A stretch of 22,372 bases of DNA from a virus: the IMG/VR virus record IMGVR_UViG_3300017746_005593, positions 1 to 22,372 of that record; one strand, written 5' to 3'. The notes beneath the pieces were generated by a model. That model saw only the letters and a list, made by a program, of their open reading frames with translations. It did not search any database and had not been told where the DNA came from. Below are positions 5,342-21,903 of the stretch, in pieces (within the stretch, counting starts at the first letter, position 1; each line of letters starts with the position of its first letter). Both the position numbers and the translations under genes were made by a program.

Positions 5342-5389
5342 GAGGGGATTAATGGGTTACGTTTATAAATATTTAAAACTTAATCCCCC
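5342..5389 (-). other. Inverted repeat at the end of the sugar-gene cluster
   Basis: Arms GGGGATTAA (coding strand, 5388-5380) and TTAATCCCC (about 5352-5344) can pair over nine bases. The ~27-nt A/T-rich loop itself contains a near-palindrome (GTTTTAAATATTTATAAAC). The 5' arm lies in the last codons of the GT2 gene. There is no U-run after the 3' arm, so it is not a standard intrinsic terminator; it could be an RNA-processing or stability element. Confidence 0.35.
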
Positions 5390-6164
5390 TAATAGTATTT
5401 CCTTTAGGACTATGAGAATTATTTTCATATAACGTTGGATCTATTCCCCATTTATATTTGAATAATTGTGCCGCAGGCCCTTCTGTTGCTCTAAATTTAT
5501 TTCCTTCTTTACCATTTTTAGTAGCTGTACTACCAAAATGATATAAGTGTGAGTTATGAGTTCTTGAAAAATTTAACCCTATTAATTCTAATTTTAAAAA
5601 GAAATCCCAGTCACAAATAAAAGGTGATTGATACATTGTATCAAAACCACCAACAGCCATATAATATTTTTTATACATGGCAAACGGGAAAATTCCCCCA
5701 TCAGGTGTTAAGTGATTTTTTTTAATTGTATACTCATAATTTATAAAATCCTCATATTGAAATTCTTTAGGATTACGACCAAAATCATTAACTGGAAAAT
5801 TAAATATTCCAGGACCTGTAGGTTCAATTTGATTAAGTGTTAATACAGATTTTTCTTTTAATGATGATTTAATTTCATTATCCCAATGTCTACCAAATAC
5901 ATTATCATCATTTACTATAAAAATGATTTCATTAGTTGCATTTATAACTCCTAAATTAAGAGCTTGTTGCATTCCTTGATTTTCTCCTAAATCAAGTACT
6001 TTAATATTATTTTTATATTTATCTAAAATTTCTTGACTTTCTTCGATAAATCCATCTACAGCAACAATTATTTCATTTTCACTTAGTTGTTGTTCAATAG
6101 CTGATTGTAAGCAGATGTCTAAATATTCTGGATTTCTATATGTTGGTATTATTAATGATATCAT
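5373..6164 (-). CDS. GT2-family glycosyltransferase (GT-A), 263 aa
   Basis: An inverting GT2-type sugar transferase. The N-terminal Rossmann half shows the family opening MISLIIPTYRNPEYLDICL, a donor-nucleotide Asp (VAVDGF, Asp37) and a metal-binding DxD-like motif in IIFIVNDDNVFG (Asn85-Asp86-Asp87). The centre has a GG-x-F/D acceptor region (AVGGFDTMY then CDWDFFLKLE) typical of GT2 enzymes that act on surface or protein-linked glycans. There is no membrane segment, so it is cytoplasmic. It is the last gene of the sugar cluster and follows the methyltransferase gene by 3 nt. Donor and acceptor cannot be read from the sequence. Confidence 0.85.
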   Translation of the reverse strand: MISLIIPTYRNPEYLDICLQSAIEQQLSENEIIVAVDGFIEESQEILDKYKNNIKVLDLGENQGMQQALNLGVINATNEIIFIVNDDNVFGRHWDNEIKSSLKEKSVLTLNQIEPTGPGIFNFPVNDFGRNPKEFQYEDFINYEYTIKKNHLTPDGGIFPFAMYKKYYMAVGGFDTMYQSPFICDWDFFLKLELIGLNFSRTHNSHLYHFGSTATKNGKEGNKFRATEGPAAQLFKYKWGIDPTLYENNSHSPKGNTIRGIKF

Positions 6165-6167
6165 ATT

Positions 6168-6746
6168 TTAAAATTTATAAACAATTAACACATCATCTTC
6201 TCTATTTTTTTCATTTCTTAAATCAACAATTTCACATTCCCAACTTAATCCTTTTAAATGTAAAAATTCATTTTTAACTGAATCTAAATTTGCTACATCT
6301 TCAATAATGTATATTCCCCCTTTATTCATATGATCTCTTAATAGATTAAAAGTTTTTACTTGATCTTCAAATCTATGACTACCATCATCTATAATAATAT
6401 CAAATTTATCACCTTCAAAATATGATTTAATAAGAGGATTTGTAGCATCTACAATATTAATATTAAATCTTTCATCATTTAAGTAAGGACCAATTTCATT
6501 TGTATGAATGTCAGCCCCATAAATTTTTCCTTTAGAAAAGTATTCATACCACATTTCTAAAGATTCTCCATAAGCAACTCCTATTTCTAGAAGTTTTATA
6601 TTTTTTTCTCTATAGGGACTAAGTAATCTTTCATATTCAGGAATGTAAGAATGTACTGTTCCTTTATCACCATGACCACATCCATAGGCTGCTTCACCTT
6701 TAACCTGCTGTGAATGATGATCAAAAATTTGTTGTAATGTTTTCAT
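6168..6746 (-). CDS. TylF/MycE-like SAM-dependent O-methyltransferase, 192 aa
   Basis: A class I SAM methyltransferase. Motif I is KLLEIGVAYGES (51-62), the post-motif acidic residue is in YGADIH (Asp79) and the metal-site hallmark IIIDDGSH (117-124) is followed by RFEDQVKTFNLL. That DDGSH block is typical of metal-dependent sugar O-methyltransferases of the MycE/TylF/ElmM type, which methylate sugar hydroxyls. Its place among glycosyltransferases fits capping of a glycan. I used ATG 6744-6746, which overlaps the upstream TGA (ATGA); the longer frame to 6779 begins with TTG and would overlap the neighbour by 37 nt. Cytoplasmic. Confidence 0.82.
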   Translation of the reverse strand: MKTLQQIFDHHSQQVKGEAAYGCGHGDKGTVHSYIPEYERLLSPYREKNIKLLEIGVAYGESLEMWYEYFSKGKIYGADIHTNEIGPYLNDERFNINIVDATNPLIKSYFEGDKFDIIIDDGSHRFEDQVKTFNLLRDHMNKGGIYIIEDVANLDSVKNEFLHLKGLSWECEIVDLRNEKNREDDVLIVYKF

Positions 6747-7432
6747 ATTTTTTCCCAATTTGTTAATGGTGATAACCAATCTGTTTCCCCATGTGTTGAA
6801 TAACCTGGTAGTGGTGTAATTAATAATTCATTTTTTTCTCTTAATTCTAAAAACATACTAAAATCATTAGGATGAGTAGTATTAGTATGTTTACGTAAAA
6901 TTTCTTCTGTACGTTTTAATGTTGAAACTTTAGCTGCAAATGTCATAGTAGTACTATTTGTTATCTTCCAATGACAACTATCTGTTAAATACACTCTAGT
7001 ATCTTCAGCTCCACCTTCACAATATGGATTACCCCCTTTATCTGGTCCTATATATTTATCTGGATGATCATATAATGAGACAAATGATGCTCCTAATTCA
7101 AATGCTTCTTGGATTATTTTTTGAGAACCTGGTTTATGAAGATAATCATTTTCTATAAAATAAATAATTTCATCATCATCATACATTAAAGCTTCATCTA
7201 ATGCCATATTAAATGTTGCAGCTCCATTACCTTTTTCAGTATATAAAATACAATTTCGTGTTACATACTTTTGAATCATATTATTAGTATCTTCAGATAC
7301 ATTATCTGCTATAACACTCCATTCAACATCATCAAATTCTTTAGTAGCATTAGCTAAACAACTTTCATTATTTATATAATCAGGTTTGACTTTATTATAA
7401 CCTGCATCTGATATTCTATATATTATTCTCAT
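6743..7432 (-). CDS. Putative divergent GT-A glycosyltransferase, 229 aa
   Basis: Probably a GT-A fold transferase, though the match is weak. The N-terminus alternates strands and helices (MRIIYRISDAGY, WSVIADNV), residues ~64-80 (TEKGNGAATFNMALDEAL) resemble the GT2 loop before the donor Asp, and IIYFIENDYLHKPG (89-102) places Glu94-Asn95-Asp96 where the DxD metal motif is expected. The C-terminal half has aromatic and Thr-rich acceptor-like segments (TNSTTMTFAAK; LPGYSTHGETDW). ATGA overlaps at both ends tie it to the neighbouring glycosyltransferase-like and methyltransferase genes. Substrate unknown. Confidence 0.65.
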   Translation of the reverse strand: MRIIYRISDAGYNKVKPDYINNESCLANATKEFDDVEWSVIADNVSEDTNNMIQKYVTRNCILYTEKGNGAATFNMALDEALMYDDDEIIYFIENDYLHKPGSQKIIQEAFELGASFVSLYDHPDKYIGPDKGGNPYCEGGAEDTRVYLTDSCHWKITNSTTMTFAAKVSTLKRTEEILRKHTNTTHPNDFSMFLELREKNELLITPLPGYSTHGETDWLSPLTNWEKI

Positions 7433-8220
7433 ATAACTAAAACATTTTGATCAGGGTATTGGAAATGACATATTCCTTCTACCATGATATTTTTATGACT
7501 ACAATCGTGAATTTGTTGTTTCTTTACTGTTTGTAACAATATACGATAATTTTCATTAGAAACCAAATGATATTTAGAAAGATTATTTCTAATTATACAT
7601 TTTTTAAGAAAGTCTTCACAAGTCCATCCTTCAATATGTTCCCAAACTCTACCACTATAATTTTCTAAATTTTGGATAAAATTGTAAGTATCATCAACAT
7701 ACTCTTTATCATAGAGATAATCTATTTTAGTTGTATCTATGAAATAAAAATTTGTTTGTGGGTAAAAATCTTCTTTAGCTATTCTATCTAAGTCAAAATT
7801 ATATTTTTCCATCCCCCCAAAGCCAATACCATTCATATAATAAAAGTCACTATTATCAATTTCAATGTCTAAAATTGTAGGTTGGAATACTACATCATAA
7901 GAAGATTTACATATCCATTTTATATTTTTAGCATGACAATAATCTATTATAGCATTTTCTTGATCTGCTATTCCAAATGAATGACCCCTATTCATTCCTA
8001 AATCTAAAATTATACAATCTGGAAAGTATTTTTTCCATAAAGCATTATTTTCTTCTCGGAGATTTTCTGAATAGTTAGTTACTACTATATGACCTTTATA
8101 TTCTTTTAATACTGAGAGGTTATATAGTATGTATCTTTCATGTAGCTCTAGATCACTTTTATTACCTATATGACCTATAGTACAATAATAACTTTTATTT
8201 ATTAGATTTTTTAGTTTCAT
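7429..8220 (-). CDS. Putative glycosyltransferase-like protein, 263 aa
   Basis: No confident family, but the layout suggests a GT-A-like enzyme: KGHIVVTNYSENL, then CIILDLGMNRGHSFGIADQE, NAIIDYCHAKNIKWICKSSY with Asp-Val (YDVVF) near the usual metal-motif position. After that comes an aromatic acceptor-like half with WEHIEGWTCEDFLKKC. It ends with a His/Cys-containing tail (HDCSHKNIMVEGICHF). I set the start at ATG 8218-8220, preceded by GGAAAA and overlapping the epimerase gene by 26 nt; the upstream TTG (8271) and ATG (8256) would lengthen the overlap. The stop overlaps the next ATG (ATGA). Role in the sugar cluster inferred from context. Confidence 0.6.
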   Translation of the reverse strand: MKLKNLINKSYYCTIGHIGNKSDLELHERYILYNLSVLKEYKGHIVVTNYSENLREENNALWKKYFPDCIILDLGMNRGHSFGIADQENAIIDYCHAKNIKWICKSSYDVVFQPTILDIEIDNSDFYYMNGIGFGGMEKYNFDLDRIAKEDFYPQTNFYFIDTTKIDYLYDKEYVDDTYNFIQNLENYSGRVWEHIEGWTCEDFLKKCIIRNNLSKYHLVSNENYRILLQTVKKQQIHDCSHKNIMVEGICHFQYPDQNVLVI

Positions 8221-9220
8221 TTTTCCAAAAACTATAGATTCCTTTTTCAATTTCATATTTAGGCCATACAAATCTATCTCTCATTGGTTGATTTTTAGCC
8301 CACTCCCACATTTGAGTTAAACCTTCTTTCATTGTAGTTTTATACTTAAAATCTAATAAATCAATTGATTTTTGGTATGTTGGTATTGAATGTTTTACTT
8401 CATGTCTACCTTCTAAATGTACAATTTCTCCTTCACCTATTACTTCTCTTAAAATTAAAGATGCGTCTTTTATAGATACTTCTTCAATTCCCCCTAAATT
8501 AATAATTTCTTTACTTGCTTGAGGTCTAACAGCAGCATTCCATAATGGTTCTAATGAATCATCAATAAAACTAAAGGCTCTAGTTTGTTCACCATCCCCA
8601 AAGATTGTCATATCCATTCCATTTAAATGTTGATACATCCAAATACCAAGTACATTTCTGTATTTATCCCAAATATTTTGTTTAATACCATAAACATTAT
8701 GAGGTCTAATAATACACCAATCCAACCCATGTTGTTCACCAGCAATCTGAATGTCCATTTCACAACCATATTTAGCTACTCCATAAGGATCAATTGGTGA
8801 TTGTTGTTGATCTTCATCAAATATTCCACCATTACCATGCCCATATACTGCGAGAGTTGACGTAAATACCAGTCTTTTAACGTCGTGTTTTATACATTCA
8901 TTAACTATGCGGGCTGTGGATTTTAAATTATTATCATAATTATAACAACGAATAAATGGAGATAAACCTTCAGCAGCGTAAGCAGCAAAGTGAAATACAT
9001 AATCAAAATTATTTACTTCAAAACAATTTTCAATTGGGTGTTCTGTAAGATTCATTTGCCAAAAATCTACTTTTGGGTTAATGTTTTCTTCAAAACCACC
9101 ACTTAAATCATCAATACCTACTACTTTATATTCTGGTTTATTTTCAATGATCCAATCTGCTAATCTACTTCCTAGTAGTCCTGCTACTCCTGTAATTAAT
9201 ACTGTTTTTTGCTTATCCAT
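8195..9220 (-). CDS. Extended SDR NAD-dependent sugar epimerase/dehydratase, 341 aa
   Basis: A nucleotide-sugar epimerase of the extended short-chain dehydrogenase family (GalE/UDP-glucuronate epimerase-like). The NAD motif is ITGVAGLLGSR (Gly11, Gly14, Gly17), the conserved segment VFTSTLAVYGHG (118-129) holds the catalytic Ser/Thr, and YGVAK gives catalytic Tyr146 and Lys150. IRPHNVYG and TRAFSFIDD are family landmarks. Length is usual for the family (310-350 aa). It follows the sugar dehydrogenase by 10 nt and overlaps the next glycosyltransferase-like gene. The exact sugar substrate cannot be assigned. Cytoplasmic. Confidence 0.88.
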   Translation of the reverse strand: MDKQKTVLITGVAGLLGSRLADWIIENKPEYKVVGIDDLSGGFEENINPKVDFWQMNLTEHPIENCFEVNNFDYVFHFAAYAAEGLSPFIRCYNYDNNLKSTARIVNECIKHDVKRLVFTSTLAVYGHGNGGIFDEDQQQSPIDPYGVAKYGCEMDIQIAGEQHGLDWCIIRPHNVYGIKQNIWDKYRNVLGIWMYQHLNGMDMTIFGDGEQTRAFSFIDDSLEPLWNAAVRPQASKEIINLGGIEEVSIKDASLILREVIGEGEIVHLEGRHEVKHSIPTYQKSIDLLDFKYKTTMKEGLTQMWEWAKNQPMRDRFVWPKYEIEKGIYSFWKNETKKSNK

Positions 9221-9230
9221 TTTTTAATAA

Positions 9231-10055
9231 TTATATAATTGCTCTTCCTTTCATTTTTTCCCAATCACGATTTTCTCTTACGTCATTGTTTTTATTATCA
9301 GTTGCTGTTAACATTCTTGGTGATAAATCTGCTTCAATAGCTAATGCTATTAAAGCTTTAACATCCTTTGGGAAACAATGTCCCCCATACCCAAAATCTC
9401 CATCAGGTCCTGGTACATTCCAATGTGATTTTCCTAACCTTTCATCGTATGTAGCATATTCTACAACTTTATCATAATCAATATTTAATGCCTCACATAT
9501 TTGATACATTTCATTTGCAAATGATACTTTAGTGGCTAGAAAACTATTAGTAACATATTTAACCATTTCAGCATATGATGAATCTGTTTTAACAATAGAG
9601 GCTTTAGGAAATGCTTTAGCATATAGTTGTTTTAATTTAGTAGTAGCTGGTCTTGGTCCTCCTAATATAATTCTTGTTTGGTTATCAAAGTCACTAACCG
9701 CATTTGCCTCTGTTAAAAATTCTGGATTGAATACAATATCTACTCCAGGGAATTTAGTATTCCATTTTTTTACTGTACCTGGGGGTACTGTGGATTTAAT
9801 AACTATAATTTTAGCTGTATTAATTTTATATATGCGTTCAATAGCATCTTCAACAATATCTATATGGCATGTATTGTCTTCATTCATTGGTGTTGGTAAA
9901 CATACAAATACAATTTCATTATTCATAGTTTCGTGTTCATCACTATTACAATGAATCCTACCTTTTATATCATATGTTTTAACATCATAATACTTACTAA
10001 ACTTTTGGTAAATTGCATTACCTACAAAACCTTGACCTATTATCCCTATTTTCAT
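9231..10055 (-). CDS. UDP-glucose/GDP-mannose-type 6-dehydrogenase lacking the C-terminal domain, 274 aa
   Basis: A nucleotide-sugar 6-dehydrogenase that would oxidise the C6 hydroxyl of a UDP- or GDP-sugar to a uronic acid in two NAD-dependent steps. Visible: Rossmann GIIGQGFVG (4-12), FVCLPTP (50-56), KSTVPPGT (87-94), FNPEFLTEANAV (109-120), the helical link with Lys166 and Asn170, and GYGGHCFPKD (222-231) with catalytic Cys227. The family is normally 390-450 aa; this stops about 40 residues after the catalytic Cys, so most of the C-terminal sugar-nucleotide domain is missing. The stop is clean and the next gene begins 10 nt on, with no leftover reading frame, so this looks like a genuine short form rather than a recent break. 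Confidence 0.86.
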   Translation of the reverse strand: MKIGIIGQGFVGNAIYQKFSKYYDVKTYDIKGRIHCNSDEHETMNNEIVFVCLPTPMNEDNTCHIDIVEDAIERIYKINTAKIIVIKSTVPPGTVKKWNTKFPGVDIVFNPEFLTEANAVSDFDNQTRIILGGPRPATTKLKQLYAKAFPKASIVKTDSSYAEMVKYVTNSFLATKVSFANEMYQICEALNIDYDKVVEYATYDERLGKSHWNVPGPDGDFGYGGHCFPKDVKALIALAIEADLSPRMLTATDNKNNDVRENRDWEKMKGRAII

Positions 10056-10056
10056 A

Positions 10057-10197
10057 TTATATGTTTCTATAGCGTCTTTTATCAGACCATTTAACTTTTT
10101 TACTATTACCTAACATTGATAATCTACTAACTTTTTGATTTAAATTATTTCGAGTTTCATTTGTGTGAGGATTACCATTATTTTGAGTATCTGCCAT
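10057..10197 (-). CDS. Small Asn/Lys-rich protein, 46 aa
   Basis: ATG at 10195-10197, TAA at 10057-10059, filling the gap between the GT2 and dehydrogenase genes almost exactly (1 nt on each side). It begins MADTQNNGNPHTNETRNNLN, an Asn-rich disordered stretch, and ends in a basic segment (SKKVKWSDKRRYRNI). No family recognised. Exact fit between neighbours supports a real gene; its role in a sugar cluster is unclear. Confidence 0.6.
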   Translation of the reverse strand: MADTQNNGNPHTNETRNNLNQKVSRLSMLGNSKKVKWSDKRRYRNI

Positions 10198-10198
10198 T

Positions 10199-10822
10199 TT
10201 AAAGAGTATTATAATAATTATTTTGTTTTACTTGTCTTTCTATATCTTTAGGATGATATAAAGCAAACTCTTCAACTTCATGTAGATTAGACCATGTTTC
10301 ATAGCCTTCCAATACTTCATGTACTTTATTTTTCCATTGAATTTTAGGATGATTTTTATAAATTCTCCACTGAAAATCAGGCCAATTAACCCAACCTTTA
10401 TCATCAACTCTCCAACCCCATTGTTTAATATATTCTTCAGTTAAACCAAATACTGTGTTAACACGGGGTACTCTAATTACTTCATTTTTTGGATTACTTA
10501 ACAAAATTTCTGGTAAGTATTCTATTAATGTTTGGTGGGGTATTTCATCAGCATCAATTTGGAATATATAATCCCCACTACATAAGGAAGTTAAATAATT
10601 TTTCCAATCAGCAAAATGTCCTTCAAATTCTTTTTTATGCCAAAGAAATTCATTATTAATAGAATGAGATCGTAAATATTCTTCAACAGTATTAGTTCCA
10701 TTTTTTGAATCAAATAATATTACTATTTCATCCTCGTATCTTTTATTTTCTAGAAGAAACGATACTAATCTTTGTATTTCTACAGCTTCATTACAAACTG
10801 TTATAGCATAACTAATTTTCAT
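10199..10822 (-). CDS. GT2-family glycosyltransferase, 207 aa
   Basis: A short GT2/GT-A transferase: the strand MKISYAITVCNEA opens the fold, VILFDSKNGT holds the donor Asp (Asp38) and YIFQIDADEIPH (85-96) carries a clear DAD metal motif (Asp90-Ala-Asp92). The downstream WPDFQWRIYKNHPKIQW and KVHEVLEGYE segments are typical of the WaaE/KdtX-like group, which transfers sugars such as heptose or glucose to lipopolysaccharide cores. The gene abuts the epimerase gene with no spacer. Donor and acceptor are unknown; the WaaE-like resemblance is from memory of the motif only. Confidence 0.82.
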   Translation of the reverse strand: MKISYAITVCNEAVEIQRLVSFLLENKRYEDEIVILFDSKNGTNTVEEYLRSHSINNEFLWHKKEFEGHFADWKNYLTSLCSGDYIFQIDADEIPHQTLIEYLPEILLSNPKNEVIRVPRVNTVFGLTEEYIKQWGWRVDDKGWVNWPDFQWRIYKNHPKIQWKNKVHEVLEGYETWSNLHEVEEFALYHPKDIERQVKQNNYYNTL

Positions 10823-11701
10823 TTAGTATAAATTTTGAATATAATCTAATAATCTATCTTGGGGCTCCCAACCTAAAATATCTTGAGCTGTAGTATCAGT
10901 ACATAAAGTTTTTCTATAATTACCAGGTTGGTCAGAAATATATTTTATGGGACAACCTGTTTTGTGTTGAAAAGATTCTGCTAATTCTTTAATAGAATAA
11001 TTAACTCCTGTTCCTAATTCCCAAGCTTCAATTGATGATGGTCGTTGAAAGTCAGCTTCACCTGCATAAAAATTAGATAAACCAATTCTGTATAATCCAT
11101 CTACAATATCATCTACATGGGTGAAATCTCTTTTTTGTTCTCCATCCCCAACAATTTCAATATGAGATTCTCTTGCTATTCTAGATCTCCAAATACCAAT
11201 CACATTACCATTTTTTTCATCTAATGCTTCACCAGGACCATATACATTGTAAAATCTACAAACCTCAATATTTACTCCAAATGATTCTTTATATAAATTA
11301 CATACTCCTTCACCTAAATATTTATACATAGCGTAAGGAGAAGTAGCTGGGTTATGGTGTTTAGATGATGATCCTGCATATACAACTTTTGCTCCTATAC
11401 GAGAAGCAAATTTACAAACTTCTTCTGTTCCTTTTACATTTATTTTAAAAGTTTCAGTTGGGTTAGCAAATGAAGGTTGTACTCTAGATTGAGCCGCTAA
11501 ATGAAATATTAAATCATAATTTTTATCAATATTATCTATGGTTGAAATATCACCATGCCAATATCTACAACCCTCAACTTCATTTTCTACAGTACCTGTA
11601 GAGTAATTATCTAATGATTGAACTTCATGCCCTTCATCTAATAATCTTTTTACTAAATTACTTCCTATAAAACCCGCTCCACCTGTAACTAATATTTTCA
11701 T
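10823..11701 (-). CDS. Extended SDR nucleotide-sugar epimerase, 292 aa
   Basis: A second NAD-dependent epimerase, GalE-like. Canonical GGAGFIG (Gly7, Gly10, Gly13), DNYSTG (31-36, adenosine-ribose contact), HLAAQSRVQPS, KVVYAGSSS (105-113) and catalytic SPYAMYK with Tyr123 and Lys127; RFYNVYGPG follows. The run AAQSRVQPS resembles UDP-glucose and UDP-glucuronate 4-epimerases. It is slightly short (292 against 310-340 aa), mostly at the C-terminus. It overlaps the zinc-ribbon gene (ATGA) and directly abuts the GT2 gene. It is distinct in sequence from the epimerase at 8195-9220, so the phage keeps two non-identical enzymes. Confidence 0.88.
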   Translation of the reverse strand: MKILVTGGAGFIGSNLVKRLLDEGHEVQSLDNYSTGTVENEVEGCRYWHGDISTIDNIDKNYDLIFHLAAQSRVQPSFANPTETFKINVKGTEEVCKFASRIGAKVVYAGSSSKHHNPATSPYAMYKYLGEGVCNLYKESFGVNIEVCRFYNVYGPGEALDEKNGNVIGIWRSRIARESHIEIVGDGEQKRDFTHVDDIVDGLYRIGLSNFYAGEADFQRPSSIEAWELGTGVNYSIKELAESFQHKTGCPIKYISDQPGNYRKTLCTDTTAQDILGWEPQDRLLDYIQNLY

Positions 11702-12162
11702 TTTTCTTCTGCAGTAAATATTCCAATAAAATCTAAAGCTTCTATATAATCTCCTTCACCAAATTCCTTTAAAGTACTCATATCCATTCTCCACTCATAA
11801 TATTCACCTTCTTTATGTGGATTAGGATATTTTTCCTTTTCTTCTTCTTTAACAGGTACTGCTAAAACAGCAGCCCATTTCCAATCAGATGAACTTTTAC
11901 CATTAGCAAAAACCATTCCTTTTCCTGGCATATTAACTGTTGAAGGCATCCAAATTTTTCCTTCTTCATCTTCACCCATTAACTCTTTATAAAGATTAGG
12001 AAGTAATTCCATTTGTTCATTAAAAAATTGTGTATCTTTTACTAATAAGCTGTTAGTTATAAAACCACAACCATAACATTGGTAGTTTTTAATTTTATCA
12101 TTTACTTCTTGTACATAGCATGCATCTGATCCACATCTATCACATATTATTAAATTATCCAT
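11698..12162 (-). CDS. Zinc-ribbon protein, 154 aa
   Basis: The N-terminus forms a zinc ribbon: Cys7-x2-Cys10 (IICDRCGSD) and Cys29-x2-Cys32 (YQCYGCGF), about 20 residues apart as in TFIIS-like ribbons. The rest (residues ~40-154) is a soluble, Trp/Glu-rich domain (WMPSTVNMPG; SSSDWKWAAVLAVPV; YYEWRMDMSTLKEFG) with no recognised family. It is embedded between a GT4 gene (1 nt away) and an epimerase gene (ATGA overlap), so it is co-expressed with the sugar genes, though nothing in it is sugar-related. A DNA/RNA-associated or late phage role is possible. Confidence 0.7.
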   Translation of the reverse strand: MDNLIICDRCGSDACYVQEVNDKIKNYQCYGCGFITNSLLVKDTQFFNEQMELLPNLYKELMGEDEEGKIWMPSTVNMPGKGMVFANGKSSSDWKWAAVLAVPVKEEEKEKYPNPHKEGEYYEWRMDMSTLKEFGEGDYIEALDFIGIFTAEEK

Positions 12163-12163
12163 A

Positions 12164-13450
12164 TTATTGTAATGTTGGTAGCTTAACTCCTTTAATCTCA
12201 GGTAATTTTAAACTTACTTGAGAAGGAACGTCGACATTTTTATCTAAAATATCTATTAATTTTGTTTTCATTGCCTCATAACTAAAGTTTTTCTTTAATC
12301 TATTATTTAAAGTTTTACTTTGTTTACTCCACTTTTTATAGTTTTTCTTAACATCTTTTAGAAAGTGTCCTAAATGACCATGATCAACTTCAAACCATTC
12401 AGAACCTTCAATTAGTACATCTTTTTGTACTGAAGAAGGATCAAGTTTAGCTAATTTACCTCCCATTAATGGTGATAATTTAGGATTTAAAAAGTCAATA
12501 TGTCCACTCCAAGCTGTTGCCATTACAGGTTTTCCTGTTAAAGCAAACTCTAATAAAGGTCTACCAAATCCTTCTCCTTTAGTAGCACTAACCATAGCTT
12601 TAATTTTAGGATGGTTATATAATTCATTAATTTCACTATCTGATAAATCCCCATGAATTAAATAAACATTTGGTAATTTTTCAGAAGGGATTGATTTACG
12701 AATAGAATGTATTCTTTTCATTATTTCCCTTCTATCCATATGTGATCCTTTACCAATACTTGTTTTTAAAATTAAGGCAGGAGAATTAGATTTATTTTTA
12801 AATACTTCATAAAAAGCTTTAATTAATAACCCAACATTTTTTCTATCATGTCCTAAATTACCTTGTAACCAATGTCCCACAAATAAATAAGCGAATTTTT
12901 CAGGAATATCTTGAATATAATCAAATAACTCTTTATTAGTAAACTCTTTAATTCCTTTATAAACATCTAAATTAGCACCTTCAAATAATACTTCAACAGG
13001 GGTTTTAATGTCTAAAGTAGTATCTTGTCCTGTTTGCTCATTTTTAACTGTGTATTTTGTATGTTCAAATACCTTTTTACTATGTTCAGATGAAGTTAAA
13101 ATTAAATCCATTCTATTACAACCTTCAATCCATTGAGGAGCACAAGCTGTTGTTTCAATCCCAGCTGTAAGTCCTATATTATACACTCCTACTTTTTGAA
13201 ATTCATTAGGAACTGTTACTTGACACCAAATATCAGGTTTTGCTTGTAATTGAGGAACAACATAATCTAACATAAATTCCCATTCTGGATGGTCATTTAA
13301 AAATCCCATTCTAGTTTCTCCCCATCTTTGAGATAAAATTTTAACCTCATATTTATCTGATTCTATTAGAGCTTTTACAAAATCTCTAGATCTTGCCCCA
13401 TATCCTGAATAGGTGTTTACGGGAGCGCTTATAACAAATGTATTTTTCAT
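12164..13450 (-). CDS. GT4-type (GT-B) glycosyltransferase, 428 aa
   Basis: A retaining GT-B glycosyltransferase. The N-terminal acceptor half begins VISAPVNTYSGYGARSRD, with the Gly-rich loop of GT4 enzymes. The C-terminal donor half contains FVGHW, LILKTSIGKG, IHGDLSDSEINELYN and the EX7E donor motif Glu293-GFGRPLL-Glu301, followed by LTGKPVMATAWSGHIDF. About 45 residues follow the fold, ending in a Pro/Lys-rich tail (LKLPEIKGVKLPT). Cytoplasmic, no membrane segment. Its start directly abuts the stop of the second GT4 gene, so the pair is coupled and may act in sequence on one glycan. Sugar donor unknown. Confidence 0.86.
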   Translation of the reverse strand: MKNTFVISAPVNTYSGYGARSRDFVKALIESDKYEVKILSQRWGETRMGFLNDHPEWEFMLDYVVPQLQAKPDIWCQVTVPNEFQKVGVYNIGLTAGIETTACAPQWIEGCNRMDLILTSSEHSKKVFEHTKYTVKNEQTGQDTTLDIKTPVEVLFEGANLDVYKGIKEFTNKELFDYIQDIPEKFAYLFVGHWLQGNLGHDRKNVGLLIKAFYEVFKNKSNSPALILKTSIGKGSHMDRREIMKRIHSIRKSIPSEKLPNVYLIHGDLSDSEINELYNHPKIKAMVSATKGEGFGRPLLEFALTGKPVMATAWSGHIDFLNPKLSPLMGGKLAKLDPSSVQKDVLIEGSEWFEVDHGHLGHFLKDVKKNYKKWSKQSKTLNNRLKKNFSYEAMKTKLIDILDKNVDVPSQVSLKLPEIKGVKLPTLQ

Positions 13451-14884
13451 TTAATATTCTAATTTGTGGTTTAATTGTCTTGTTTTATAATCTGTATCTT
13501 TCGAAAATGTGAAAGATTTTCTGGGAGTCCAAGTTGAGAATAATTTATCAATACATTTAGTAAAATTCTGACCCATTTTTTCAGCTGTAAATCCAGCTTC
13601 ATCACTCATAGCCCATTCTCTACCAGAATTACCAATTCTTTGTCTTTCATCTTTAGACATTTTATATAGTTCTACAATTCTATCTTTTGCATCTCTAAAA
13701 TCACATCTACTATCCCAAATATAAGGAGTAATTGGAGAACCAACCATCCCCATAGCTTTAGGATAAACAGATAATGCCCATTCTCCGTGTTCTGTATAGG
13801 TCCCAAATTGATTAGAAGGCATTTCAATAGAATTAGTATACCAATTACCTTTTTCATCAACAAATCTCATTTGATCTTGCATACCACCTGTTACATTAGC
13901 AATAAATGGGGTACCTGTAAGTAATGATTCAGTTAATGATAATCCCCAACCCTCAGCTGCTGATAATAATATTACACCATCAGCCATATTATAAAGATAA
14001 TTCATATGAGTGTATGGAAGTTTTTGATTGGAAATTACTACAGTTTCATCATCATCACCAAATAGATATTCAATTACTGCTGGTAGGTCTGTTCCATGAT
14101 CACTTACAGGATCTGTGTGTAGTATAAATAATACTTTTTCTTTTTCTTTTTCAGTTAAAGAGTCTACAAATAATTTCCAAGCTGTTAATGCATCTGGGAT
14201 TGATTTTCTTCTAATATTTCTTGAATTAAAAAATAAAATAAAATCTCTTTCTTTTCCTAAAGTTAATGCATTTTTAAATTCTTCATATTCTTTATTATAG
14301 TCATCAGACATTGGAAAGAATTTTTTATCATCTAACCCATGAGGAACATATTCAATAACTTTATTACTTGCTTTATCACCTAAAACAATTTTATTAATAG
14401 CTACTGTTTGTTTAGAAATACCAAATAAAGCATCACAAGATTCATAAAATTCCTCATTATATTGAGGTGCAGGCATATCATCCCAAATGTTAAGATACGC
14501 TATTGGAATTTTAGCTCTAATTTCATCTTCCATTTGGAAAACCCATTGAAAATATCTTGGGTCTGTAATTAATAATATAGCATCTGGTTTTTCTCTTTGA
14601 ATTACTGCTCTTAAAGTATCAGGATTACCATATCCATCTACAGGATATAAATTACAATAAGCATCTTCAACTTCCATTTCAGTTTTGATATGGGGAGCAA
14701 AATCTTCAACTTTACCTTTATCAGGATGTTTTACTGAACCTGCAATTTGACACCAATTATATCGATGAGCAGTATTTAAAACAATCTCTCTTCCAATTTG
14801 AGCAACACCCGAATGAACTCTAATATCATCCGTGAGTAATAAAATTTTCTTTCTATCACTTTGTTTAATATAACCTTCTTTCAT
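13451..14884 (-). CDS. GT4-type (GT-B) glycosyltransferase, 477 aa
   Basis: A second large GT-B enzyme. N-terminal half: KILLLTDDIRVHSGVAQIGR with the GT4 loop, and ITDPRYFQWVFQ. Donor half: FFNSRNIRRKSIPDALTAW (phosphate-binding Arg/Lys), LFILHTDPVSDHGTD, QKLPYTHMNYLYNMADG and the EX7E motif Glu311-GWGLSLT-Glu319, then LTGTPFIANVTGG. A TYTEHGEWALSV stretch in a loop after the donor motif and a C-terminal tail (~30 aa, basic) are extra. It is the first enzyme gene of the sugar cluster, 10 nt after the ribbon-helix-helix gene. Leader AAATAAAATTAA before ATG lacks a Shine-Dalgarno site. Confidence 0.86.
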   Translation of the reverse strand: MKEGYIKQSDRKKILLLTDDIRVHSGVAQIGREIVLNTAHRYNWCQIAGSVKHPDKGKVEDFAPHIKTEMEVEDAYCNLYPVDGYGNPDTLRAVIQREKPDAILLITDPRYFQWVFQMEDEIRAKIPIAYLNIWDDMPAPQYNEEFYESCDALFGISKQTVAINKIVLGDKASNKVIEYVPHGLDDKKFFPMSDDYNKEYEEFKNALTLGKERDFILFFNSRNIRRKSIPDALTAWKLFVDSLTEKEKEKVLFILHTDPVSDHGTDLPAVIEYLFGDDDETVVISNQKLPYTHMNYLYNMADGVILLSAAEGWGLSLTESLLTGTPFIANVTGGMQDQMRFVDEKGNWYTNSIEMPSNQFGTYTEHGEWALSVYPKAMGMVGSPITPYIWDSRCDFRDAKDRIVELYKMSKDERQRIGNSGREWAMSDEAGFTAEKMGQNFTKCIDKLFSTWTPRKSFTFSKDTDYKTRQLNHKLEY

Positions 14885-16088: not shown

Positions 16089-16619
16089 TTATTTTACCCA
16101 TTTAATATAATTAGTATAATAAGCATAACCGTGTACTATATTAGTACTTAAAAATACTTCTAAATCAGGATATCTAGATTTCATTATTCTAGGTGTTAAA
16201 TCTGGTTGATGGTGAATTTCTGATTCTACTCCACCAACAGCTCCTTGTTCATGTAGATAAGGAACAGCTACCATACATTTAATTCCTTTTGATGTAATAT
16301 CTTTGATTAATTTTTGTGCGGGTTCAACTTTGATATGTTCTAATACATCTCCAATTATGATATAATCATAATCATCATAATCAAAGTTTAGAATATCTCC
16401 TACAATAACATTATTGTAATAACGATGAAGGCCATATTCTTTAATATAGGGTTCATGAATTTCTAAAGCATCAATATGTAAATCTTGTAAATTTGATCCC
16501 CATACTCCAATCCCAGCTCCTACATCTAGGATTTTATTTCTATAAGGAAGATGTTCTAGAACTACAGTACGAATATGTTCATACATTACATCTTTAAAAG
16601 TATTAGTACTTGATGGCAT
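16089..16619 (-). CDS. Class I SAM-dependent methyltransferase, 176 aa
   Basis: Motif I KILDVGAGIGVWG (29-41), acidic motif II around LEIHEPY (52-58) and IIIGDVLEHI (87-96), the DVLEH form common in Methyltransf_11/23-type small-molecule, lipid and sugar methyltransferases. The tail includes VPYLHEQGAVGG and ESEIHHQPDLT, which may be the acceptor region. No DNA-methylase catalytic motif (DPPY, NPPF or PCQ) is present, so it is unlikely to be a DNA adenine or cytosine methylase. It sits between the nucleotide-modification-associated gene and the nuclease. Substrate unknown. Confidence 0.8.
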   Translation of the reverse strand: MPSSTNTFKDVMYEHIRTVVLEHLPYRNKILDVGAGIGVWGSNLQDLHIDALEIHEPYIKEYGLHRYYNNVIVGDILNFDYDDYDYIIIGDVLEHIKVEPAQKLIKDITSKGIKCMVAVPYLHEQGAVGGVESEIHHQPDLTPRIMKSRYPDLEVFLSTNIVHGYAYYTNYIKWVK

Positions 16620-17039: not shown

Positions 17040-17259
17040 TGATCAAGGTTTTTTGGTTAAAATAAACTTTTAAAGTATTAATTCTGTCATCAGCATCCAC
17101 CAACATAGTAAGAGCTTCTTCAGCATTTTTATAAAAATCCTCAGTAGAATGATCACCAATACCTACTGCTTTATTACCCAATAATTCTAGTGATAATAAT
17201 GCTTTTGATTTATCAGCTTCTACAGATTTCATAAGCATATTAAATAGTTGTGTTGTCAT
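17032..17259 (-). CDS. Hypothetical small helical protein, 75 aa
   Basis: Unrecognised function. Helical, acidic: MTTQLFNMLMKSVEADKSKA, then ALLSLELLGNKAVGIGDHST, EDFYKNAEEALTML. The segment ELLGNKAVGIGDH is likely a conserved turn. Its ATG overlaps the gp62 stop (ATGA), and its 3' end overlaps the next gene by 8 nt, so it is tightly coupled to the replication genes. No membrane segment. Confidence 0.75.
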   Translation of the reverse strand: MTTQLFNMLMKSVEADKSKALLSLELLGNKAVGIGDHSTEDFYKNAEEALTMLVDADDRINTLKVYFNQKTLINE

Positions 17260-17669
17260 ATTTTAAATAATTTGGTTATTTCTTTTTTTTCTTTTCCTAT
17301 AGATTTAAGAATGTTTTTAATTTCTTCTTTACCTATAATGTCAATATAATGATCTGCTTCGTGGGATCCAACTTCAAAATAACCAGCTATTAATTCAACT
17401 AACTCTTTATTTTTTGATTTAATTTTAGATTTAATATACTTATTCCATACTTTTTTCTTAGGAATCATATTACAATAAAAATTGTAAATACCTATTTTAT
17501 CTGTAGGTAAAAATCTTTGAGCCATATTAGATATCTCTATATTGCTTTGCCCCATAGACATAAATCTATGAACCATATAAGAATTCCAGCTCTCCCAATC
17601 TTTCTCACTAAATTGAGAGGCTGGAGTTTTCCTAACAGTAATTTCGTCTAACCAATCCCAAAGCTTCAT
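17256..17669 (-). CDS. 62: Clamp-loader small subunit, T4 gp62-like, 137 aa
   Basis: Begins MKLWDWLDEITVRKTPASQF and contains WNSYMVHRFMSMGQSNIEI, a layout that I recognise from gp62-type clamp-loader subunits of T4-like marine phages. The rest is helical (IYNFYCNMIPKKKVWNKYI; ELVELIAGYFEVGSHEADHY). In T4, gp62 is the single non-ATPase subunit that completes the gp44 tetramer and loads the sliding clamp gp45 onto primed DNA. It is shorter than T4 gp62 (187 aa), as in other distant relatives. The presence of gp44 at 18742-19662 in the same transcription direction supports the call. TAATG and ATGA overlaps link it to its neighbours. Confidence 0.75.
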   Translation of the reverse strand: MKLWDWLDEITVRKTPASQFSEKDWESWNSYMVHRFMSMGQSNIEISNMAQRFLPTDKIGIYNFYCNMIPKKKVWNKYIKSKIKSKNKELVELIAGYFEVGSHEADHYIDIIGKEEIKNILKSIGKEKKEITKLFKI

Positions 17670-17920
17670 TAGGCAATGATATGATCTTTATACTCTTCTC
17701 TTAAATCCGCAGGGATAGTTTCATTTAAAATTTTACCTGTTGAAGGGTCATAAAATACTGGAATTGGCATTAGAGCATCTTCTTCAGCTCCTACTACGAA
17801 TTTAGATACTTTACGCAATAATACTCCTTGTTGAAATACTACTCCACCTTCAGGTGTTTCCATAGATGTAGTGTTTTTAACATCTACATTCATGTTCATT
17901 TGTTGTTGTTGATTTGCCAT
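17669..17920 (-). CDS. Hypothetical phage protein, 83 aa
   Basis: Begins with a Gln/Met/Asn-rich stretch (MANQQQQMNMNVDVKNTTSM) followed by GGVVFQQGVLLRKVSKFVVG, then MPIPVFYDPSTGKILNETIP. The latter half looks folded and contains a Pro/Tyr-rich hairpin-like core. I chose ATG 17918-17920; the longer frame starts at a TTG (17956) and overlaps the preceding gene. One-base overlap with the gp62 start (TAATG). Function unknown; its position between gp44 and gp62 makes a replication-linked role possible but unproven. Confidence 0.7.
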   Translation of the reverse strand: MANQQQQMNMNVDVKNTTSMETPEGGVVFQQGVLLRKVSKFVVGAEEDALMPIPVFYDPSTGKILNETIPADLREEYKDHIIA

Positions 17921-17924
17921 TTTT

Positions 17925-18119
17925 TTAATGTTTTTTGTTTTGTTGTTTAAAATCAATTATAAATCCAATCGCTACTAAAATATTAAGACCTACACTAGCG
18001 ATTATTTCATGCAAGTCTTTATATACATTTAAAGATAAATGAACATGCCCAATCATCCAAAATGGAATAGCCATTTGTTGGCTGTACCATATTAGGGCAA
18101 ATTCAATAAATTTTTTCAT
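17925..18119 (-). CDS. Small membrane protein, 64 aa
   Basis: Begins MKKFIEFALIWYSQQMAIPF and has one clear membrane segment IIASVGLNILVAIGFIIDF (~38-56) ending in a charged tail (KQQNKKH). The aromatic N-terminal helix (~4-25) may be a second, weaker segment. I took ATG 18117-18119 because it overlaps the methyltransferase TGA as ATGA; an in-frame ATG at 18137 adds six residues. Two short hydrophobic segments and a basic end resemble holin-like or membrane-anchor proteins, but no specific family is recognised. Inner-membrane location is inferred. Confidence 0.7.
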   Translation of the reverse strand: MKKFIEFALIWYSQQMAIPFWMIGHVHLSLNVYKDLHEIIASVGLNILVAIGFIIDFKQQNKKH

Positions 18120-18742
18120 TCTACTTTTATTACGCATTTAGGAATAAAATAAGTTTTTAATTTAGTATCAAAATATTGATGTTTCAAAGATTGATTAGAG
18201 TCATTTTTTATTGAAATTTCTATAGGTGTAATATCAAAATCTTCATTTAAAATATTATATGATTGTTTTGCTATATTATTTACTACACCCCCATTAGGAT
18301 TATTAAAAAATGAATATATTCCTTTAGGTTTTAATAAATTTTTAACATTTATATCAAATTCTTTTTGAGATTCTAACCAAGTATCAAAATATATTCCATC
18401 AAATTTAGGTAAATATTTTATTACTTCTTGCCAAGGTTTAAATATAACTTTTACATTAGGTTTTTTTAACCAACCATCTTCAATTATTTTTCTTTGTACA
18501 TCTGGGTGGGATTCTATTATCCAATGTGTTTTAGGATTCCAATTTTGGATATAGCTATCAATAAAACCTAACCCAAATCCTATATTAAGAATATCTCCCC
18601 CATTTTTACAAATTTCAAAAGCACTATATTTCATAATGTTTTCTTCCCACCCCATCATAATAGCACTACCATTTGAATCTAATAAAAGATTATCATCAGT
18701 ATATGTTAATTTTTCATTATGATAATTAGGGTTAATATTCAT
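18116..18742 (-). CDS. GAMT/arginine-N-methyltransferase-like SAM methyltransferase, 208 aa
   Basis: Resembles guanidinoacetate N-methyltransferase (GAMT) and the related RMT2 arginine methyltransferases. Signatures in order: AIMMGWEENIMKY (27-39), DILNIGFGLGF (50-60, SAM motif I), HWIIESHPDVQRKI (73-86; Glu77 would bind the adenosine ribose), KPWQEVIKYLPKFDGIYFDTW (Asp120 in the YFDTW block). In GAMT the equivalent Glu of the VMERWE segment and the Asp of LYDTY bind the guanidino group; residues at both places are acidic here (Glu33/34, Asp120). A guanidino or arginyl substrate is therefore plausible. It is inserted between gp44 (TAATG overlap) and the small membrane gene. Family call by motif, substrate inferred. 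Confidence 0.75.
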   Translation of the reverse strand: MNINPNYHNEKLTYTDDNLLLDSNGSAIMMGWEENIMKYSAFEICKNGGDILNIGFGLGFIDSYIQNWNPKTHWIIESHPDVQRKIIEDGWLKKPNVKVIFKPWQEVIKYLPKFDGIYFDTWLESQKEFDINVKNLLKPKGIYSFFNNPNGGVVNNIAKQSYNILNEDFDITPIEISIKNDSNQSLKHQYFDTKLKTYFIPKCVIKVE

Positions 18743-19662
18743 TATAAAGTAATTAATTGGTTAATTAAAGCCATACAGTTTATTTCTTTATCAATTCTAA
18801 AATTAGATTGGTAAGTATATTCATTAATGTAATATGCTACCATTCCTTCTTTATCTGGTGCAAATTCATGAGCATTATCATAAAGATAACGATATAACTC
18901 TTCAAAATCTTGAACATTAGCATCTGCAATTATTTGTCTAATAGTTTTGAAAGATTTGGATTTATATGTTTTAGATTTAGATAATTCACTAACTACTTCA
19001 GACATATAATTAGATGATACTAATATAGATTTATCAATCTTTAATTTGTTATCTTGGGTTGATAGTTGAACGGTATTTAAACATTTACGTAAATCAGGGT
19101 AGAATTGATTAACTATGATTTTAAGATCTTTTATATCATAAGTTGTACCTTCTTCTTCCATAATCCAAGCAATATGTTTTGCTACATCAGTTTTAGTTGG
19201 TGGAACTATTTTTAATGTTTGACATCTTGATTGTAATGGATCAATGATACGTTCTACATAATTACAAGTTAAGATAAACCTAGTAGTACGCGAAAACGTT
19301 TCAATGACATTACGGAGAGAAGCTTGCGCCTGTATAGTAAGAAAATCAGCTTCATCCAAAATGACCACTTTAAGTGATTTAAAACTAGCTGATGATGCAA
19401 ATCCTGAAACTTTATCTCTAATCGTTTCAATACCACGTTCATCCGAGGCATTAATATAAAGATGCTCACAATCAAGATTTTTAACAATGAGTTTAGCAAG
19501 AGTTGTTTTTCCCGTTCCTGCAGGTCCATAAAATATAAGATTTTGAATATCGTTTTGTCCTAGATATTGTTTAATACTTTTTTTAATATGATCATTCCCT
19601 ACATAATTATCTAAATTAATGGGACGATACTTCTCTACTAATAAACTATGATTCTTATTCAT
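18742..19662 (-). CDS. 44: Clamp-loader large subunit AAA+ ATPase, T4 gp44-like, 306 aa
   Basis: AAA+ ATPase that with gp62 opens and loads the sliding clamp for DNA replication. Seen: VEKYRP (9-14), the diagnostic opening of RFC/gp44 proteins; Walker A GPAGTGKT (46-53); Walker B VVILDEADFL (99-108); sensor-1 region ILTCNYVERI; and the SRC arginine-finger motif (145-147). The C-terminal ~100 residues form the helical collar. Length is close to T4 gp44 (319 aa). The start is immediately preceded by TATATTCACGT, the same 11-mer found upstream of the 98-aa gene near 22220, but no Shine-Dalgarno site. The missing partners regA and polymerase (gp43) are not next to gp62 here. Confidence 0.93.
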   Translation of the reverse strand: MNKNHSLLVEKYRPINLDNYVGNDHIKKSIKQYLGQNDIQNLIFYGPAGTGKTTLAKLIVKNLDCEHLYINASDERGIETIRDKVSGFASSASFKSLKVVILDEADFLTIQAQASLRNVIETFSRTTRFILTCNYVERIIDPLQSRCQTLKIVPPTKTDVAKHIAWIMEEEGTTYDIKDLKIIVNQFYPDLRKCLNTVQLSTQDNKLKIDKSILVSSNYMSEVVSELSKSKTYKSKSFKTIRQIIADANVQDFEELYRYLYDNAHEFAPDKEGMVAYYINEYTYQSNFRIDKEINCMALINQLITL

Positions 19663-19973: not shown

Positions 19974-21602
19974 TTAAGACATTCCATCTGGTGTTGGATC
20001 TTTCTGATTAGGATGATCAACAACAACACACTCTGTTAAAAGAATAGTTCCGGCTACTGAAGCAGCATTTTGTAAAGCTGTATATGTAACTTTAGAAGGA
20101 TCTAAAATTCCAGCATCTTCCATATTTACTACTTTTTCATTTCTAATATCGTAACCCGCCCAATAATCATTACCTGAATTAATTAAATCATTAGCAATAA
20201 TTTCAGCTTCTGTTATAGAATAACCGGCATTAGTCATAATTTGGGTAAATGGCTTTCTACAAGCTTCTTTAACAATATTAGCTCCAAGATTATTATTTTC
20301 TAACCCATTAGAAGCATACAATAAAGCAGCTCCACCACCTGGAACTATTCCAGCTTCAAGTGCTGCTTTTGTTGCATGAAGAGCATCATCTACTCTATCT
20401 TTCTTCTCTCTCATTTCAGTTTCAGTATAACCACCTACATGAATAATAGATACTCCACCAATCATTTTAGCTAATCTATTTTGTAAATGTTCAACAATAT
20501 AAGGTGTAGTTTCTTGATCAATATTTTTCTGGAGATCTGCTACTCTACTATTAATAGCATCAGCTTCACCTTTACCATCTACAATTGTTGTTTGTTCTTT
20601 AGTAACAGTTACAGTTCGTGCTTCACCAAACCAATCATAAGAAAATTTATCAAGTTTCATTCCTTTATCTTTGTCAAATACAACACCACCTGTTAAAGTA
20701 GCAATATCTTCAAGAAGCAACTTTTTTCTATCTCCAAAATCAGGAGCCTTAACAGCAGCTACTTTAAGAATACCTCGTGCTTTATTAACAATTAAAGTTG
20801 CTAAAGCTTCACCATCAATATCATCTGCTATAATAAGTAAAGATTTATTAGCATTAGAAACTCCTTCTAAAATAGGAAGTAAATCTTTTACTTGAGTGAA
20901 TTTATGATCTGCAATTAATACATAAGGATTTTCTAAAGTACATGACATATCTCCATTATTAGTAACAAAGAAATGTGATTTATATCCTCTATCAAACTGC
21001 ATTCCTTCAACAGTTTCAAGATAAGTATCACCTGATTTGCTTTCTTCGATATGAACTACTCCGTCTTGTCCTACTTTATCAATAGCCGCAGAAATAAGTT
21101 TTCCAATTTCAACATCATTATTAGCTGAAATAGTAGCAATTTGTTGTAGTTGTTCTTCACTACTAATTTCTTTACTAATATTATCTTTAATAACCGAAAC
21201 AATTTCATTAACGGCTTTATCAATATTCCTTTTAATTTCAACAGCATTTTCACCATTATTTAAATGTTTTAATCCTGCTTTAACTAATTCTCTAGCTAAA
21301 AGTGTTGATGTTGTGGTACCATCTCCTGCTTTATCTGCAGTTTTTAAGGCAGCTTGTTTTACCATTTGAGCTCCTAAATTTGGAATTAAACCATCTACTG
21401 TAATATTTTTTGCTACAGTAACACCATCTTTAGTATGGGTGGGTTTATTTAATTCATTATAACCACTGTTATCAATTAATACATTACGACCATTAGGTCC
21501 TAAAGTACAAACAACAGCATCTGCTAAGGTATTAATACCTTTCATTAATTCAGTCCTTGCTTCAGTACCGAATCCAATTTCTTTTTTATAATCTACTGGC
21601 AT
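19974..21602 (-). CDS. groEL: GroEL-type group I chaperonin, 542 aa
   Basis: A full-length chaperonin that folds proteins inside a ring capped by GroES, using ATP. Landmarks: TLGPNGRNVLID (catalytic-site Asp equivalent to Asp52), THTKDGVTVAK, GDGTTTSTLLA (Asp equivalent to Asp87), the apical region with EGMQFDRGY, DDALHATKAALEAGIVPGGG (Asp equivalent to Asp398). Between ID and TKDG there are four extra residues compared with E. coli GroEL. The C-terminus ends NQKDPTPDGMS, lacking the Gly-Gly-Met tail that fills the ring cavity in bacterial GroEL. Normal length for the family is 540-550 aa. It lies 10 nt after groES, as in bacterial operons. Confidence 0.95.
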   Translation of the reverse strand: MPVDYKKEIGFGTEARTELMKGINTLADAVVCTLGPNGRNVLIDNSGYNELNKPTHTKDGVTVAKNITVDGLIPNLGAQMVKQAALKTADKAGDGTTTSTLLARELVKAGLKHLNNGENAVEIKRNIDKAVNEIVSVIKDNISKEISSEEQLQQIATISANNDVEIGKLISAAIDKVGQDGVVHIEESKSGDTYLETVEGMQFDRGYKSHFFVTNNGDMSCTLENPYVLIADHKFTQVKDLLPILEGVSNANKSLLIIADDIDGEALATLIVNKARGILKVAAVKAPDFGDRKKLLLEDIATLTGGVVFDKDKGMKLDKFSYDWFGEARTVTVTKEQTTIVDGKGEADAINSRVADLQKNIDQETTPYIVEHLQNRLAKMIGGVSIIHVGGYTETEMREKKDRVDDALHATKAALEAGIVPGGGAALLYASNGLENNNLGANIVKEACRKPFTQIMTNAGYSITEAEIIANDLINSGNDYWAGYDIRNEKVVNMEDAGILDPSKVTYTALQNAASVAGTILLTECVVVDHPNQKDPTPDGMS

Positions 21603-21612
21603 TTTTATTTAT

Positions 21613-21903
21613 TTAATTGTTAATTTTTGCTAATATTTGATTTTCTGGTCCTACCCAATATTCTTCTCCTTCATAAGGTAATTTTGTAAAACCCTGTGTA
21701 GGTAATACTACTATATCTCCTACTTTAGTTATAGTTTCATTAAAACTACCCATAAGAGTATTTTGTCCAGGTCCTACAGAAATAACTTCTCCGGTTTGAT
21801 TTTTGTCATTACCCATATCTGGAACTATAATGTTACCATGTTGGGTTTCATCTGCCTCAATAGGTTTAACTATAACGGCATTAAATAGTGCTTCTAATTT
21901 CAT
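21613..21903 (-). CDS. groES: GroES-type co-chaperonin, 96 aa
   Basis: The lid of the GroEL ring. LFNAVIVKPIEADETQHGNI opens the Cpn10 fold; ETQHGNIIVPD is the mobile loop with the hydrophobic IIV tripeptide that docks on GroEL, and TGEVISVGPG (36-45) and VGDIVVLPTQGFTKL (61-75) are conserved core strands. Length is normal (~95-100 aa). This is a true Cpn10, unlike T4 gp31, which only replaces GroES structurally. Its ATG overlaps the upstream gene's TGA (ATGA). It is paired with groEL directly downstream, so the phage carries the whole chaperonin. Confidence 0.93.
   Translation of the reverse strand: MKLEALFNAVIVKPIEADETQHGNIIVPDMGNDKNQTGEVISVGPGQNTLMGSFNETITKVGDIVVLPTQGFTKLPYEGEEYWVGPENQILAKINN

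Follow-up and report, generated by a model that had tools for sequence, protein, structure and literature searches.

A methyltransferase gene in a phage clamp-loader neighborhood

The stretch of DNA analyzed here (the window) covers positions 1 to 22,372 of the IMG/VR virus record IMGVR_UViG_3300017746_005593. Its minus strand carries a clamp-loader neighborhood (Table 1), in which the identity of gp44 is certain and that of gp62 is supported by its sequence matches. Directly downstream of gp44 is an uninterrupted ORF, running from ATG to TGA, whose product is a predicted methyltransferase of the GAMT/RMT2 superfamily. Its ATG overlaps the gp44 stop codon as TAATG, while its 3' end is overlapped by 22 bases of a gene for a small hydrophobic protein. 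A sequence-only reading of this DNA had placed the gene between gp44 and gp62; it is indeed flanked by both, but it does not abut gp62, as two small ORFs intervene. The clamp-loader operon is adjoined by a chaperonin gene pair, and the window further holds a large sugar-related gene cluster and two more methyltransferases.

Table 1. Features of the window, with coordinates, strand and basis of assignment
Feature	Position	Strand	Basis or remark
Glycosyltransferase and sugar-nucleotide gene cluster	5373..14884		
Further methyltransferase	6168..6779		
Further methyltransferase	16089..16619		
gp62 clamp-loader small subunit	17256..17669	minus	PHROG 225 E 3.1e-16; Pfam Phage_clamp_A 6.8e-5 (below cut-off)
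Small conserved protein, member of the gp44-gp62 backbone	17669..17920	minus	neighborhood comparison
Small hydrophobic protein, probable membrane protein	17925..18137	minus	kept at the site with or without the methyltransferase
GAMT/RMT2-superfamily SAM-dependent methyltransferase (predicted)	18116..18742	minus	208 aa; key residues E33, E77, W104, D120
gp44 clamp-loader large subunit	18742..19662	minus	PHROG 168 E 2.3e-76
Phage GroEL and GroES-like pair	19974..21903		

The window protein is a relative of GAMT

The four GAMT-like blocks that had been read from the letters are all present in the intact protein, namely GWEEN (31-35), NIGFGLG (53-59), HWIIE (73-77) and FDGIYFDTW (114-122), and the protein has no family in Pfam, PHROGs or NCBIfam. 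A phmmer search with it against the PDB recovered four GAMT sequences (E 2.8e-14 to 1.4e-11) and, besides these, nothing below 0.05, the next unrelated match lying at 0.068; a profile built from 29 of its relatives reached GAMT at 5e-36. These values place the resemblance far beyond chance: the window protein is an intact relative of GAMT, the creatine-making enzyme of animals.

Structure prediction, which the sequence-only reading had proposed as a check, bears this out. The AlphaFold2 model (pLDDT 91, pTM 0.90), for which the input consisted of the window and locus sequences with one row from the annotated phage collection left out, displays a GAMT superfamily fold: in Foldseek searches GAMT ranks first to fifth (1xcj at E 1e-13, TM 0.79), with the spermine and spermidine synthases (3e-8) far behind. 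In alignments using a human GAMT sequence identical to 3orh_A, human E46, E90, W117 and D135 correspond to E33, E77, W104 and D120 of the window protein, E90 being the acid at the SAM ribose, so that acidic residues (E33 and D120) do stand at the two positions with which GAMT binds guanidinoacetate, as had been claimed. The likeness to GAMT (PDB 1xcj, 3orh) thus comprises the fold, the SAM motif, the equivalents of E46/E90/D135 and a C-terminal YY/P motif, whereas overall identity is about 21-25%.

RMT2 is a type IV protein arginine (delta-N) methyltransferase of fungi and plants with an N-terminal ankyrin region. The window protein may share several blocks with RMT2 (LNIGFG-GxID, HPDV, GW-KxNV, FDGIY-DT and FSFFN), and its 41% identity over 161 aa to a provisional yeast RMT2 sequence serves as a lead only. 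Unlike RMT2, it comprises the methyltransferase domain alone, with the N-terminal extension missing.

Two phage lineages and their cellular kin

Among 50,697 phage records, a relative of the window enzyme was found in only one, an uncultured jumbo phage. In uncultivated phages, two scans yielded 188 and 365 methyltransferase candidates, respectively of a gp44-type and a tail-type named for their genomic contexts (see below). The earlier remark that phage enzymes of this kind are unusual therefore applies to named records and fails for uncultivated phages, in which they are common. The window enzyme and its relatives make up a large phage methyltransferase family, so far undescribed, with these two lineages. 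Among viral proteins, the top fold match is UniProt A0A8D9CBY1 from an uncultured marine phage (32% identity, E 4e-18), which bears the name “putative guanidinoacetate methyltransferase”, and for which we found no reported function beyond that name. Literature searches on phage GAMT or phage-encoded arginine methyltransferases returned nothing relevant; the fold family of GAMT is known, one phage homolog already carries a name, and this kind of phage enzyme is undescribed in the literature found.

Phylogenetic analysis groups the gp44-type with TPR-fused alphaproteobacterial proteins (support 98/92), apart from the tail-type (96/88). Among cellular proteins, these fusions of TPRs to an RMT2/GAMT-like domain (L040-L045) are closest to the window enzyme, with 44% identity across the domain, and differ from it in their N-terminal TPR domain. 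A further cellular branch is found in Flavobacteriaceae NRPS clusters (L049, L050, L051), whose GAMT-like proteins have lost both guanidino-binding acids, with Q or L in place of E33 and H in place of D120; judging by these replacements, they likely act on a different substrate.

In the phage proteins E33, E77, W104 and D120 are identical in 159/159 cases (35 gp44-type and 52 tail-type lineages at 90% identity). As the NRPS-linked paralogs lack both substrate acids, this retention points to constraint and not merely to fold. It also bears on the idea of a degenerate or non-catalytic SAM-binding protein, which no computed result supports and which the invariance of all SAM and substrate residues across the 87 lineages makes very hard to credit.

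Variable cargo between gp44 and gp62

Of 80 loci recovered in a scan for gp44 relatives, 79 were examined. The backbone of gp44, the small conserved gene and gp62 is constant in these 79 loci, and the hydrophobic gene is present in most. The methyltransferase occupies the gap between gp44 and gp62 in 21 and is absent from the other 58. Near relatives share the gp44-methyltransferase order, a point that the sequence-only reading had proposed to check in related genomes. Alternative inserts at the gap, to which we assigned names by eye from sequence, include an FkbM-like methyltransferase, another, unrelated methyltransferase of 179 aa, and proteins resembling CorA and a thioesterase; such unrelated inserts, two other methyltransferase types among them, were seen in L080, L083, L091, L101, L107, L121 and L143. 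The window methyltransferase is thus optional cargo at a variable and usually empty site.

When gp44-type methyltransferases themselves were scanned for, 53 of 79 loci had the gene at the gp44 spot and 26 elsewhere. The off-site copies adjoin a glutamine synthetase-like gene, sugar-nucleotide genes, or sulfotransferase-/oxygenase-like genes (names again by eye). In several related contigs the glutamine synthetase-like gene overlaps the methyltransferase (e.g., L288:2841-4618).

Cargo status means that position alone is no argument for a role in replication, and the replication or early function suggested by the sequence-only reading gains no support from an insertion at a spot that is usually empty or filled with other genes. 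On that reading the protein would act early, methylating a protein of replication or of the host, and its adjacency to gp44 would be functional. The start overlapping gp44 does imply joint early expression, and host protein methylation rises early in infection by flavophages that are not known to encode methyltransferases (PMC13288928). Nevertheless, with the gene wanting at most related gp44 loci, unrelated cargo at the same spot and a third of the gp44-type copies (26/79) lying elsewhere, we hold this function to be improbable.

The same contexts raise the prospect of a non-guanidino target, for example a glycan or a glycosylated virion protein built through the sugar and glycosyltransferase genes in the vicinity. 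Since some gp44-type copies are lodged among sugar-modifying genes, one of them between sugar-nucleotide genes, a glycan substrate fits too, as do the dense sugar-related cluster of the window and the FkbM-like and other methyltransferases at the same gp44 spot in relatives. Against it, the guanidino-binding acids are strictly kept in the phages, though lost in the cellular paralog branch. We also know of no glycan methyltransferase in the GAMT/RMT2 superfamily and count this against a glycan target, which we accordingly regard as unlikely.

A tail-fiber cassette in the sister lineage

The distant relatives of the window methyltransferase that form the tail-type lineage occur in tail modules, directly after long fiber genes. 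In the best 80 of the 365 tail-type candidates (52 lineages), the next gene encodes a partner protein of ~230 aa in 80/80 cases, and the upstream fibers mostly have in common a C-terminal domain ending in GDxVRxxGY...FNPD. The resulting cassette of fiber, GAMT-like methyltransferase and CBM-like partner was seen in L310-L389 (e.g., L339:5293-6594). Conversely, searches starting from the partner found the methyltransferase directly upstream in 31 of 33 testable loci, the two exceptions having no methyltransferase on their 46- and 27-kb contigs.

No Pfam or PHROG family matches the partner, whose predicted structure (pLDDT 88) is similar to chondroitin sulfate- and alginate-binding CBMs (E 1e-4 to 7e-4, TM about 0.5). 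Across 66 partners (L310 numbering), conservation is highest at R63 and D171 (100%) and at R54 of a Gly-Arg-Gly loop (97%). The partner scan used a closer sequence set with the RG motif in its search pattern, which biases RG conservation in that scan. The L339 partner model places the Arg of the Gly-Arg-Gly loop (R51) in the loop of a hairpin and R60 in a strand. Both partner loci that lack the methyltransferase retain the Gly-Arg-Gly loop, and the loop Arg may therefore be structural or ligand-binding. Moreover, deeper tail-type branches possess the fiber with different downstream proteins, so the fiber and the partner are equally good candidates for the substrate.

Two tail-type proteins (L036:5989-7038 and L039:5887-6939) have a C-terminal extension of ~150 aa that appears Hint/intein-like by eye; a Pfam search of L036 gave no Hint/intein-type match. 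A Flavobacteriales MAG contig with the tail cassette (L047) probably derives from a phage, for which it hints at a host among the flavobacteria.

Relationship between the gp44 and tail copies

The window gene is positioned at gp44, not between a fiber and its CBM-like partner, and falls in a clade separate from the tail-type. The 164-kb relatives of the window have exactly one methyltransferase, at gp44, and keep a fiber (with the same C-terminal domain) and the partner, separated by no gene and just a few bases. A 158-kb relative, whose neighboring glycosyltransferase is 81% identical, has its single methyltransferase copy between the fiber and the partner. This one genome group suggests that the gp44 copy and the tail copy are alternative solutions to one task. 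The partner is missing from other gp44-type genomes, including one of 166 kb, and was not found in 15 methyltransferase-free phage records.

Three scenarios were considered and rejected. A relocation of the gene from the tail module to gp44 in the lineage of the window is contradicted by the separate clades and the grouping of the gp44-type with the TPR-containing cellular proteins. Presence of the partner in all gp44-type genomes is contradicted by the other gp44-type carriers. Finally, the proteins found at the place of the partner in methyltransferase-less relatives are not divergent partners, as profile comparison shows no homology.

Predicted chemistry and substrate

In GAMT, the carboxylate of guanidinoacetate is bound by backbone amides at human L171/T172. 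The equivalent anchor loop of the window enzyme is N148-P149, and Pro occupies the T172 position in 77/79 gp44-type proteins; at the level of sequence, this leaves no amide donor there to anchor a carboxylate. Genes of the amidinotransferase family (PF02274) are absent from 9 phage records, some of them fragmentary, though the host could supply guanidinoacetate. With the altered loop and no amidinotransferase gene, guanidinoacetate, put forward earlier as a possible substrate, is unlikely to be the one used, and creatine synthesis by the window enzyme appears unlikely. More generally, a small-molecule guanidino methyltransferase, acting on guanidinoacetate (to creatine), arginine or agmatine, could alter host metabolism in infection; GAMT is the nearest characterized relative, and both guanidino-binding acids are retained. 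However, these 9 records have neither an ADI nor an amidinotransferase gene, the anchor loop is altered and the sister lineage is linked to tail structural genes, for which reasons we deem such an activity quite improbable.

From the invariant acids we infer guanidino chemistry as follows: the GFGLG loop would keep SAM in place together with E77, and the guanidino group would be clamped by E33 and D120, with D120 accepting the proton while the methyl moves to the nitrogen. The latter step would be as in GAMT, where D134 (rat numbering) is the proton-accepting residue (PMC12471008). The TPR fusions, the cassette with structural genes and the lack of an amidinotransferase suggest that this guanidino group is most likely that of a protein arginine. 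We hence favor, with about even confidence, an active N-methyltransferase of the GAMT/RMT2 superfamily that is optional cargo in marine T4-like phages and probably acts on protein arginine.

For the tail lineage, the substrate would most likely be the adjacently encoded tail fiber or CBM-like adhesin, and the window enzyme may perform the same job on a fiber or adhesin in trans, which makes these its candidate targets. Speaking against the partner as a general target, the lineage of the window is phylogenetically separate and other gp44-type carriers do without the partner. The wider proposal, that marine phages possess a dedicated family of GAMT/RMT2-derived protein arginine methyltransferases modifying the host-binding tip of the virion (the fiber C-terminus or the CBM-like adhesin with its Gly-Arg-Gly loop), with genes that sit in the tail cassette or, like that of the window, travel as clamp-loader cargo, is tentative, and we would sooner bet against it than for it.

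The first report of methylated proteins in phage virions dates from 2026 and concerns marine flavobacterial phages: in marine Cellulophaga phages, which are not known to encode methyltransferases, methylation was seen at Lys and Arg residues of virion proteins, one of them a tail fiber (PMC13288928). Such modification hence exists in the same ecological setting, and the GAMT-like family provides concrete phage-encoded candidates for it, with the strict fiber-methyltransferase-adhesin cassette pointing to both the enzyme and its likely substrate. If true, this would be the first phage-encoded protein arginine methyltransferase, as far as we have searched, and a new way for phages to tune host recognition.
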